Part shown: positions 21,846 through 26,335 of the stretch, in pieces
Position numbering within the stretch: the stretch's first letter is position 1
Layout of the letters: every line of letters starts with the position of its first letter
Source of the DNA: Verrucomicrobiota bacterium
GTDB lineage: Bacteria; Verrucomicrobiota; Verrucomicrobiia; CAIQCK01
DNA length: 64,000 nt
Assembly: GCA_016235595.1 (NCBI GenBank)
Contig: JACRJX010000029.1
Span: 248,001-312,000, forward strand
Reading direction: 5' to 3'
Notes under the pieces: model-generated
The model's input: the letters and a program-made list of their open reading frames with translations, nothing else
Database searches by the model: none
Told to the model about the DNA's origin: nothing
Made by a program: the position numbers and the translations under genes

Positions 21846-24212
21846 TCAATCGGCAACGGATTGCCGGTTCATCCCATTCAGCGTCGCGTGCGTTCCTGCT
21901 GCGGCTTTCTTGAAATCAATGAGTGTTGTCTTGCCGCCAAGAGTCATGCGCACGCCGATAGTGGTGGCGGTTTCCACTCGCTCGGCTTTCCAATCGGTAC
22001 GCTGGCCGGCACGATAAGGAACGATGACCGTGAGCATGCCGAGGGAGTCGAGCTTGTCTCGCGTGCCGGCTTCGACGTGCCATTGGTTTGGAAATGGCTT
22101 CTTCGGTTTCGGCTCGAAGCCGTCCCATTGGCGGAACGCGAGCGGTACGGGCGAGAGGTAGCGCACGGTGACGCCGGCTTTCGGCTGCTCGACGGAGAGC
22201 TGCGCGGCCTTCTCGTCCACGTCGAACGATTTCAACGCGTGGAGCATGAACTGGAAAGTGGCGGGCTGCGCGGCGACGAGGTCGTCATAAATGACAATGA
22301 AGGGCACGTCGCCTTTGACGAAGGCAACATGACGGTGGAACCGTTTCAACCGGCCGCCGTAGGCGTCAGTAGCGTCGCCAACAATATCGTCACGCGTCGG
22401 CGTGAGCCTGGCTTCGGCGATGCGGCCATGTGGCGCGGCGGTATGTTTGATCTGGCCCTCGCCGTTCACCAACACACCGTTGTGCGCGATGGTGTTGTGG
22501 ACCCAGTTGTAATGGAACTTGCTGCCGTGGAGGTCGCGATAGACGCACGTCATCAGCAGCGGCTCGCCGTAGGCGTTCAGTTGAAATGTGTTGTGTGGGT
22601 TATGACCGTGGCTCTGCGTGCCGAACGGCGACGACTTCATCAGGAAATGCACATCATCGCGAGCATCGAGCAACGTGGTGTGCAGGCTCGCGATACCGAT
22701 GCCATGAAAAATCTTCGACGACGGCAAGTCGGTCGGCGGCTTGGCGGTGGGCAGTGGCGGCAGGCTGGCTTTGTAGAGGAAGCCGAGCCATCCGCCTTCA
22801 CCTTTCATTCGCCACGTTTCGGTCCACCAACGCCAGTATGCCGCGTGGCCGCCGTCGGGTTGGCTGCCTTTCATGCGGATGTGATACTCCATGAAGCCGC
22901 CGATGCTGCTCGACGGCGGGCGGTAGGCGAGGTCGCCGAAACCAGAGTTGGGGGAACCGGGCGGTGTGATGTAGAGCGGGTAATCACCGACCTGTGCGAA
23001 GAACGGCTTCTTCAAACCGTCGATGCCGAGCGCCGACTGCGCGATCTGCAACCACCAGACCGCCTTGCTCATGTAGCCGCTCCAGTAACTAACGCCTTCG
23101 TGCCAGCCGCCATCGTCATCGGCCCAGATGGGGTAGCAGGAATAGAACTTGTTCACTGCGTAATCGAGCCACATCTCCGCTTCCGGCACGTCGCCGAGCA
23201 AGGCGATGGCCGTTTCGGCAAGCTTGTGCCAGATGCGGTTGCCGTGGCTGTTGAACGGCTTGTTCAGATGGCCCGTGCCGCGCGCAATTTCACCGCTCGC
23301 CCACGCGTCCTGCGCGCGCCGCGTCATGGCAGCTTGGAATTTCACGCGGTCCTCCGGCGTCAGCGTGTCCCAGGCCCAGTCGTAGGCGCGCGACGGACGG
23401 TAGAGCATGACCTTGCCCGCCTCGCAATTGAGTTTGAAGTTCGTCGGTCCATCGGGGTTCCACGACGCGAGATGCATGACCCACTTGCGCGCCGCCTCGC
23501 CGTATTTCTTGTCCTGCGTGATGAGATAGACAAACGCGATCGTTTCTGCCTCGCCGCAGGCTTTCGAAGCCTGCTCGCGGTTCGGCCACCAAAACTTCAC
23601 GGCTTGGTCGTTCTCCTTGTCGCGCGCAGAACCCATCTCCTTTGGCTCCGGCGTCGGCCCGGCCTTAATATAGCGGTCGGCATCAGCGACGAGCTTCGCA
23701 AAATCCTTCGCTTCCTTGCCTCGCGCCAGTTCCCGCAGACGCGGCAAATTCTCCGGTCGCATGAACAGACGCGGATGGCTTTGTGGCACGCGCTGCTTTT
23801 GCTCGGCACGCGTCGGCATCGGAAATGCCACGGCGTCGGACGGCACAACGACCGAGCGCGTTGCACTCCACGTGGAAACGTCGCCTTTCTTCGTCACGAA
23901 ACGATAGCGCCAGAAATAGGTTCCCGGCGCGAACGGCGCCTGATGCGTGTAAGTGTTCCATTGGAAGCCGCTGGTTGACTGCGCGTCGCTGAAGTCCTTC
24001 TTCTGCGCCCACTGGATGGTGTAGGTCTGCGCATCCGGCTCGTGCAGCCAGATGAACGACGGCGGGTTCAACCGCACCACCGCGCCATCGGCCGGCCGAT
24101 AGCCGATCTCATCCGGCTTTGGCGCGCGGTTCTTCACCTGTGGCGGCGCGGCGCCCATCGAGACAGCACAGGAGAGAAGGAGGATTCCGCGCAGCCACAG
24201 AGAGAAGTTCAT
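21846..24212 (-). CDS. Exported DUF4962/heparinase II-III-like polysaccharide lyase
   Basis: The protein is 788 residues from ATG 24212 (MNFSLWLRGILLLSCAVSMG, a signal peptide); the 60-residue upstream extension of the track lies over the gap and the next gene's end. Residues about 25-130 are a fibronectin-like DUF4962 segment (YRPADGAVVRLNPPSFIWL). An alpha/alpha toroid follows (HPRLFMRPENLPRLRELA; WMHLASW-type helices), then the heparinase II/III beta domain with SHGHNPHNTFQLNAYGEPLL and HNTIAHNGVLVNGEGQ. Members cleave uronic-acid polysaccharides. It lies 52 bases downstream of the KimA-like gene on the same strand, so it may share the transcript. Confidence 0.85.
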   Translation of the reverse strand: MNFSLWLRGILLLSCAVSMGAAPPQVKNRAPKPDEIGYRPADGAVVRLNPPSFIWLHEPDAQTYTIQWAQKKDFSDAQSTSGFQWNTYTHQAPFAPGTYFWRYRFVTKKGDVSTWSATRSVVVPSDAVAFPMPTRAEQKQRVPQSHPRLFMRPENLPRLRELARGKEAKDFAKLVADADRYIKAGPTPEPKEMGSARDKENDQAVKFWWPNREQASKACGEAETIAFVYLITQDKKYGEAARKWVMHLASWNPDGPTNFKLNCEAGKVMLYRPSRAYDWAWDTLTPEDRVKFQAAMTRRAQDAWASGEIARGTGHLNKPFNSHGNRIWHKLAETAIALLGDVPEAEMWLDYAVNKFYSCYPIWADDDGGWHEGVSYWSGYMSKAVWWLQIAQSALGIDGLKKPFFAQVGDYPLYITPPGSPNSGFGDLAYRPPSSSIGGFMEYHIRMKGSQPDGGHAAYWRWWTETWRMKGEGGWLGFLYKASLPPLPTAKPPTDLPSSKIFHGIGIASLHTTLLDARDDVHFLMKSSPFGTQSHGHNPHNTFQLNAYGEPLLMTCVYRDLHGSKFHYNWVHNTIAHNGVLVNGEGQIKHTAAPHGRIAEARLTPTRDDIVGDATDAYGGRLKRFHRHVAFVKGDVPFIVIYDDLVAAQPATFQFMLHALKSFDVDEKAAQLSVEQPKAGVTVRYLSPVPLAFRQWDGFEPKPKKPFPNQWHVEAGTRDKLDSLGMLTVIVPYRAGQRTDWKAERVETATTIGVRMTLGGKTTLIDFKKAAAGTHATLNGMNRQSVAD

Positions 24213-24264: not shown

Positions 24265-26076
24265 TCACGCATAGACCAGCAGGTCAATCTGCTCCGGAAG
24301 CTGCCGCGCCACCTGGCGAATGATGTTGCCGCGCAGAACATCCAGCAGCACGCCACGCCGCTTGGTGCCAAGGATGAGGCGCTCAGCGCCAATGGTGGCG
24401 GCGATGTCCACGATCGTATCGGCCGGCGAATCGCTCACCGCGTAGCACGGCCGGAATGCCTGACTGCCCAGTTTGTTTCTTGCGTAGGTGAAAATCTGCG
24501 CCGCTTCGTCGTCGTCCTGCCATTTGCGGGCGAAATCAGCTTCAGCGAGAACCGGCTGTTCGCGAATGAAGGCGACGTAGAGCGGCCGCTGCGTTTCCTG
24601 GGCTTCCTTGATGGCGAATTCAAGGGTGCGGTTGATGCCGCGCACGGCGCAGAGAAGCGGGCTGCCGGAAACGACAACCGTTTCGACGCCGGAGGCAGGC
24701 GCTGGCGATGGCTTGATCGGCTCGGTCACCACGCTGGCTCTCTTCAGTCTGCGCTCGTGCACGAGGCCGCGCAGGATCAAGCCCACCGCCAGAACCGTGA
24801 CGGCAAAGACGCGCGCGTTGGGCTTGTCCACGAACAGCGAGATTTCGATCGCCAGCATGATGAGGAACGTGATGAACATCACACCGCGTTCCCACTTCGC
24901 GAGCGGGAGCTTCCGGTCAGTGGAACTGGCGGCAAGGTTGGTGGCAATCGCGCCCACGACGCCCACCGCATAGAGGTCCGCCAAGCCCGCCACGTCGCTG
25001 ACGAACAACACCAACGAGACCGGCACAACGGTGGCCATCACCATCGCGAGCGTCGGGACGCCGAAGCTGTTGAGTTTCTGAAAGACCGACGGCACCTCGC
25101 CATCGCGCGACATCAGGAACTGGATGGCGATCAGGTCCACGATGGCGGTGTTGACCGCCGACAGCAGCAAGAATCCGAACACAATCGAGACGGCCCATCC
25201 TGCAATATGACCGATGGTCGCACCGAGCGAGTTGCCCACAAAGACTTCGGCCATGTAGCGAAGCATGTAGTCGCGCACGCCGGGATGCCCGGGAGCGTTG
25301 ACCTCGCCGTTGCTGGCCAGGAGGCCAGGCAACGCGTTCATGGCCAGACCCAGAAGGGCGGTGAACACGCAGACCTCGACCATGACGATCAAGGTGGACG
25401 GCGTGGATGTTTTTGAAACCGACGGCCTCGCGTCCGTGCTTCCGGGGTTGAGTTTCATCACGCCGGTGGCATTGGCGATCGCCTCGACACCGGAGAGGGC
25501 GAGGACGATGCCGACGAAGCCGTTCCAGTTCGCCATGAAGCCCCCGTGCAGCGGTTGAAGATTGCGCACCGCCTCGCCCAGATGCGGCAGGCTGAACAGG
25601 CTGAGAATTACCACCACAATGACGGTTGGCAGCGAAATCAAGAACGCCAGCCCGCCGGTGTGTTTCGGGCCGAAGAAATTCAGTGCGCCGATGATTACGA
25701 TGGCAGCGGCGGCGAATTTTTCTGGATGCGGCACACCGAGATACTGGAACGCCGACAGCGCGCTGATGGCGGCGGTAACGATGTAGTCCGCGATCAGCAG
25801 GAACGCGCCGACGATCGAGATCATCTCAGAACGGTGCCGCACGCTGGCATAGACGCCACCGCCGTCGGGATAGTGCCTGCAAATGGCGATGTAGTTCAGC
25901 CCCACCAGCGCCGTGAGCAGGCACATCGGCGCGATGAGCCAGAACGAGCTGTAGCCGGCTACGGCAAACGCCAAGCCGACGACGTAGGCTTTGCTCGTGC
26001 CCCAGTCGCCGTAAAGGATCGCCGCCGCGCGCGGCACGTCCACATTGCGCGGGCGCTTCGTATTGGATGCAATCAT
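24265..26076 (-). CDS. kimA: KimA-like potassium importer: APC-fold permease with C-terminal USP domain
   Basis: The protein is 603 residues, close to Bacillus KimA (YdaO). ATG 26076 is chosen because the longer track start would lie in the riboswitch. About 12 membrane helices run to residue 440, with YPDGGGVYASVRHRSEM and GAFLLIADYIVTAAISALSA resembling the KimA YPQGGGAY / LLVDYILTVAVS region. The last 150 residues form a universal-stress-protein-like domain (IAATIGAERLILGTKRRGVL). KimA is a proton-coupled K+ importer shut down by c-di-AMP. A ydaO-type c-di-AMP riboswitch lies directly upstream, which matches the Bacillus arrangement. A generic amino-acid permease is the alternative. Confidence 0.72.
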   Translation of the reverse strand: MIASNTKRPRNVDVPRAAAILYGDWGTSKAYVVGLAFAVAGYSSFWLIAPMCLLTALVGLNYIAICRHYPDGGGVYASVRHRSEMISIVGAFLLIADYIVTAAISALSAFQYLGVPHPEKFAAAAIVIIGALNFFGPKHTGGLAFLISLPTVIVVVILSLFSLPHLGEAVRNLQPLHGGFMANWNGFVGIVLALSGVEAIANATGVMKLNPGSTDARPSVSKTSTPSTLIVMVEVCVFTALLGLAMNALPGLLASNGEVNAPGHPGVRDYMLRYMAEVFVGNSLGATIGHIAGWAVSIVFGFLLLSAVNTAIVDLIAIQFLMSRDGEVPSVFQKLNSFGVPTLAMVMATVVPVSLVLFVSDVAGLADLYAVGVVGAIATNLAASSTDRKLPLAKWERGVMFITFLIMLAIEISLFVDKPNARVFAVTVLAVGLILRGLVHERRLKRASVVTEPIKPSPAPASGVETVVVSGSPLLCAVRGINRTLEFAIKEAQETQRPLYVAFIREQPVLAEADFARKWQDDDEAAQIFTYARNKLGSQAFRPCYAVSDSPADTIVDIAATIGAERLILGTKRRGVLLDVLRGNIIRQVARQLPEQIDLLVYA

Positions 26077-26159: not shown

Positions 26160-26335
26160 CGAGGGACATCCCTTGCCCTTAATGTTATCGCCGACGAGGT
26201 TAGCTGTCGGGCTGGAACCACTAAGTGTTCCCGATGCCGCAGGCATCGTAAGCCCCAATCCGTTTCCGGAAACTTCTGGTTTCCCCGCTGGTTCCGCTCA
26301 AGCGGAACCATTAGGCAGACAAAGAACTGCCTGTA
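26160..26335 (-). ncRNA. c-di-AMP riboswitch (ydaO-yuaA type)
   Basis: On the minus strand the leader carries GCCCGACAGCTAACCTCGTC, which matches the highly conserved 3' motif of the ydaO class (CCGACAGCUAACCUCGUAGGC in my memory), and upstream GCGGGGAAACCA ... GATTGGGGCTTAC, matching its GGGG-A-CC and UUGGGG elements. A perfect eight-pair hairpin (GGTTCCGC/GCGGAACC) and a GATGCC/GGCATC hairpin fit peripheral stems. It lies about 85 bases upstream of a KimA-like gene, the classic target. No T-run terminator was seen; GATTCCGG/CCGGAGTC downstream could be the expression switch. Boundaries are approximate. Confidence 0.8.

Follow-up and report, generated by a model that had tools for sequence, protein, structure and literature searches.

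A c-di-AMP riboswitch precedes a predicted potassium importer of a proposed third KUP-superfamily branch in Verrucomicrobiota

Main finding

In the window, a stretch of 64,000 nucleotides from a Verrucomicrobiota bacterium of the class Verrucomicrobiia (contig JACRJX010000029.1, positions 248,001 to 312,000), a ydaO-class c-di-AMP riboswitch probably controls a K+ importer with a C-terminal Usp domain, a member of what we read as a third KUP-superfamily branch. This reading best explains a set of direct observations, namely the aptamer itself, the gene order, the homology to KimA and Kup, a K+ site that is conserved, the organism's genes for a cyclase and a phosphodiesterase, and the absence of four known types of K+ importers from its assembly. 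The riboswitch and its connection to K+ are known biology, c-di-AMP riboswitch cases having been predicted in Verrucomicrobia (PMC6488665); what is new is the branch to which the importer belongs.

A conserved c-di-AMP aptamer

The original prediction recognized a c-di-AMP riboswitch in the minus-strand leader from its ydaO-class core motifs, and CCGACAGCTAACCTCGTCGG, GGGGAAACC and TTGGGG were located on the minus strand within 26160-26335. The covariance-model search that had been set beforehand as a check bears this out: in the window, the RF00379 model matches minus-strand positions 26327-26174 over its full length (1-134) with 47.1 bits (E 8.1e-8), above the gathering score of 38 bits. This is the sole RF00379 match in the 6.65-Mb assembly.

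Covariation was tested on 11 homologous leaders aligned by sequence alone, using the Rfam structure, to which the platform hairpin described below and an extended P2 were added. Pairing is kept in 91% of the cells, and 19 pairs show changes on both sides, compared with 9.3 in shuffled alignments, none of 500 shuffles reaching the observed count. Sliding the partner by 1-3 columns leaves a pairing of only 31-45%, and no slide matches the true structure. Ten of the pairs in the tested structure belong to the platform hairpin and are poorly conserved, so the aptamer alone scores better: its core helices are paired in 98-100% of the cells, several with compensatory changes, and its core motifs are invariant across the 11 leaders. 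The aptamer lies 97 nt ahead of the permease start in the window, and the closest relatives retain it 95-97 nt before the start codon. The window aptamer is real and conserved.

The permease gene and its Usp domain

The gene behind the aptamer (24265-26076, minus strand) encodes a protein of 603 aa, whose placement in a third KUP-superfamily branch draws on sequence, profile and fold comparisons. Besides a Usp domain at residues 483-594 (24295-24630, minus strand; PF00582, 32.5 bits against a cut-off of 24), Pfam recognizes nothing in it, and Usp is matched in all 25 members of alignment A1; the predicted 603-residue permease with a C-terminal USP-like domain thus holds. The family alignment is consistent with initiation at ATG 26076. 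A second in-frame ATG, at 26169, would give a reading of 634 aa; it was rejected because the frame is broken in the related locus L004 and the alignment lends it no support. The proposal that the riboswitch fixes the start codon stands as regards the codon, which the alignment of relatives supports; the riboswitch alone does not settle it, as ATG 26169 lies inside the 3' tail of the aptamer.

Kinship with KimA and Kup

Single-sequence searches with the permease against the PDB and NCBIfam returned no match, phmmer did not find KimA, the K_trans (PF02705) cut-off was not passed, and a shallow family profile had no match in the PDB. KimA became detectable with the addition of the paralog clade, in a deep profile of 34 members (A5), for which the KimA structure 6s3k is the top PDB match (E 1e-13), the next chain following at 1e-3. 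An AlphaFold model of the permease (pLDDT 82.9, pTM 0.69) places three KimA structures at ranks 1-3 of a fold search (E 6e-19 to 5e-15); cation-chloride cotransporters and amino-acid transporters rank below them. Profile and fold matches together extend KUP-superfamily homology over the membrane and cytosolic domains; the large rmsd over both domains indicates that their arrangement is not reproduced, so that the fold is supported and the dimer is not.

In profile comparisons, the window family reaches 97.5% with the KimA-type proteins of the class and 94.9% with its Kup proteins, whereas the latter two reach only 8.7% with each other. As the family is akin to both and those two are barely akin to each other, we read it, from profile comparisons rather than a rooted tree, as a branch of its own within the KUP superfamily, the third next to Kup and KimA. 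Aside from its Usp tail, this branch is left unnamed by Pfam, NCBIfam and the single-sequence searches run here. Ordinary sequence searching links the KimA-type protein of the class to KimA at 2e-57 and does not link the permease to it. The permease is an APC-fold protein and is not an orthodox KimA. Its description as KimA-like is therefore apt for the layout, the K+ site and the best family-profile and fold matches, but does not extend to KimA proper, considering its separate branch and its loss of the mapped c-di-AMP contacts. Clustering with amino-acid transporters lacking USP, which had been named as grounds for abandoning the prediction, was not found: the permease has a Usp domain, and KimA is its best match by profile and by fold.

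The potassium site and the c-di-AMP contacts

K+ is coordinated in KimA by Asp36, Tyr43, Thr230 and Tyr377 (PMC10284832), which align to D24, Y31, S195 and Y369 of the permease. Three of the four ligands are unchanged, and one shows a conservative Thr to Ser replacement, all four positions being invariant in 34 sequences. As to the importer, the original prediction holds in its essentials, and K+ is the probable substrate.

The contacts of KimA with c-di-AMP include Arg337 and Pro479, of which Arg337 was reported to be non-essential (PMC10284832). They align to Ser330 and Ala477 of the permease, so that neither mapped contact is kept; the comparison covers these two residues, as the His579-Ser582 loop of KimA could not be mapped. 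With both replaced, the alignment gives no support to direct inhibition of the permease by c-di-AMP, which may occur all the same, given the reported dispensability of Arg337 and the loop outside the comparison.

c-di-AMP enzymes and potassium importers in the genome and the class

A search for a diadenylate cyclase in the genome, proposed with the original prediction, found a DAC-domain gene encoding a PTS_EIIA_2-DacZ_P-DAC protein (L002, 568-1935), and c-di-AMP is accordingly predicted to be made in this organism. The fusion would tie c-di-AMP to a phosphotransferase signal. A PgpH-type phosphodiesterase is also encoded, in the form of a PgpH-like 7TMR-HDED protein that has an HD motif. The assembly, which is about 97% complete, yielded no match to K_trans, TrkH, KdpA or the KimA type (that is, Kup, Trk/Ktr, Kdp or orthodox KimA). 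The window family has two members in this genome, the permease and one sister gene, and these are the only K+ importer candidates found there.

By standard models, 62 of the 286 genomes of the class are devoid of all four known importer types. The window family fills this gap in 49 of these 62 genomes, which spread over 19 families, and occurs in 38 of the 224 genomes that have a known importer (Fisher p 1e-19, in a test that ignores shared ancestry and assembly gaps, some genomes being incomplete). The Usp-fused third branch is more likely than not the main or only K+ importer of many Verrucomicrobia devoid of Kdp, Trk/Ktr, Kup and KimA, with c-di-AMP control exerted, in some of these bacteria, at the RNA level and not through direct inhibition of the protein.

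Distribution and targets of the riboswitch

RF00379 occurs in 62 of the 286 genomes of the class. K+ importer genes lie behind 25 of the 30 loci inspected: 12 are of KimA type, eight encode Kup, two KdpA and three members of the window family. Band_7/SPFH-domain genes lie behind the other five (L039, L044, L049, L051 and L055), a target that was not met in a limited literature search.

Of 32 permease relatives that the genome collection contains, only seven have the aptamer directly upstream, some of the loci ending short upstream. A search for hidden weak aptamers in six relatives whose upstream DNA is long enough gave nothing even at E 1. The distribution is patchy, and members of the family have gained or lost the switch. 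Freshwater Spartobacteria (L017, L018, L021, L023, L024, L026 and L028) have the permease without a riboswitch, downstream of what, judged by eye, is a cytochrome-oxidase-like cluster.

Other arrangements were observed. At L013 (4348-7803), the riboswitch is followed by a gene for a BBP2 beta-barrel porin with the permease immediately behind it, an arrangement suggestive of a porin-importer operon; listed along with this locus was a 1.5-kb gap at G044:C11. At L016 (1463-7615), window-type permease genes stand in tandem, a riboswitch accompanying each, beside a divergent second-clade paralog, and divergent permease/paralog pairs also occur at L007 and L012.

Expression platform and downstream lyase

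The candidate expression platform, a terminator-like site on the minus strand (26113-26091), consists of a 10-bp GC-rich hairpin followed by TCTGTTGTT. The hairpin ends 14 nt ahead of the start codon, its U-tract is weak, and it is also present in L003 and L004. A clean two-state platform was rejected: the hairpin is predicted to fold with or without the aptamer core, and one terminator-like site was found where 2.1 are expected by chance. The 5' arm of P1 (GUCUGCC) recurs in the 5' arm of this hairpin; no claim is made from this recurrence, as the predicted pairing is not exclusive.

Where their direction is known, ydaO-class riboswitches lower the expression of K+ importers upon binding c-di-AMP (PMC6488665, PMC10284832). 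The window riboswitch would likewise bind its ligand when K+ and c-di-AMP are high, thereby reducing the expression of the importer, and a drop in c-di-AMP at low K+ would allow the importer to be made. The hairpin at 26113-26091 may act either by termination or by blocking translation. We infer, besides ligand binding, this off-switching and the platform, that K+ is the substrate and that its import is coupled to H+.

The polysaccharide lyase predicted 52 bases downstream is indeed found 52 nt past the permease stop codon, as a DUF4962/heparinase II/III-like gene (21846-24212, minus strand; Pfam). The same lyase follows the permease in L003 (87% identity by tblastn) and in L068, and L004, whose permease is 82% identical, has a heparinase II/III gene at the corresponding position, along with a weak match to GH79. 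An ORF survey of more distant relatives, which has artefacts, shows no lyase. It is plausible that the lyase lies locally on the permease transcript, and it may possibly share the control of the riboswitch.

Alternative explanations

The permease could transport something other than K+, such as an amino acid, a polyamine or a sugar acid, perhaps in connection with the lyase, and be placed under c-di-AMP for osmotic reasons. Pfam amino-acid permease models match some members of the family, amino-acid transporters are near by fold, and genes for polysaccharide degradation lie behind the permease in L004 as well as in the window genus. Nevertheless, we consider another substrate unlikely, given that none of the four K+ ligand positions is lost, that KimA is the best solved match in both sequence and fold, that the family stands in for K+ importers across 19 families, and that most of the riboswitches inspected in the class stand ahead of K+ importers.

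Two further alternatives concern the RNA. A switch that turns the gene on, or that responds to another signal, would be compatible with a platform that is ambiguous in folding, the direction of control being one of the inferred steps; it is at odds with the riboswitches of known direction cited above, and we hold it to be very improbable. Least probable of all is that the aptamer is a relic or a match in sequence only, having lost c-di-AMP sensing here. Its 47 bits are exceeded by many members of the class, which reach up to 79, and folding yields no clear two-state platform; a relic is, however, hard to reconcile with core helices paired at 98-100%, compensatory changes and invariant motifs over 11 leaders, and with the constant distance of the aptamer from the start codon in the nearest relatives. 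A functional off-switch ahead of a K+ importer thus remains our preferred reading.

Significance and comparison with known systems

What most merits attention is the importer branch and its presence in genomes without any known K+ importer. The riboswitch upstream hints at the function of a permease for which family databases give none, and the locus would be an instance of K+ uptake controlled by c-di-AMP beyond the well-studied Gram-positive bacteria, one in which the mapped regulatory contacts of KimA are gone and the RNA switch is still there.

The kimA gene of B. subtilis offers a close parallel, as the same RNA class leads an APC-fold importer whose C-terminal domain is cytosolic. KimA, a K+/H+ symporter (PDB 6s3k, 8b70, 8b71), has its K+ ligand positions in common with the window permease, save for one Thr to Ser replacement; the sequence resemblance is confined to the profile level, and the Usp domain of the permease is one that Pfam detects. 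Unlike B. subtilis KimA, the window family is found in Verrucomicrobia, beside or in place of orthodox KimA. Kup (PF02705), a K+ importer that likewise follows the riboswitch at 8 of the 30 class loci inspected, shares with the permease the helix-1 signature GD.GTS..Y (YGDIGTSPLY and YGDWGTSKAY, respectively), whereas the window protein has no K_trans model match and is related to Kup through profile comparison (94.9%). Finally, the kdpFABC operon of B. thuringiensis places a K+ importer under the RNA class of the window leader, and c-di-AMP was shown by experiment to cause termination there (PMC6488665); its importer type differs from the window permease, whose control is predicted from the sequence.
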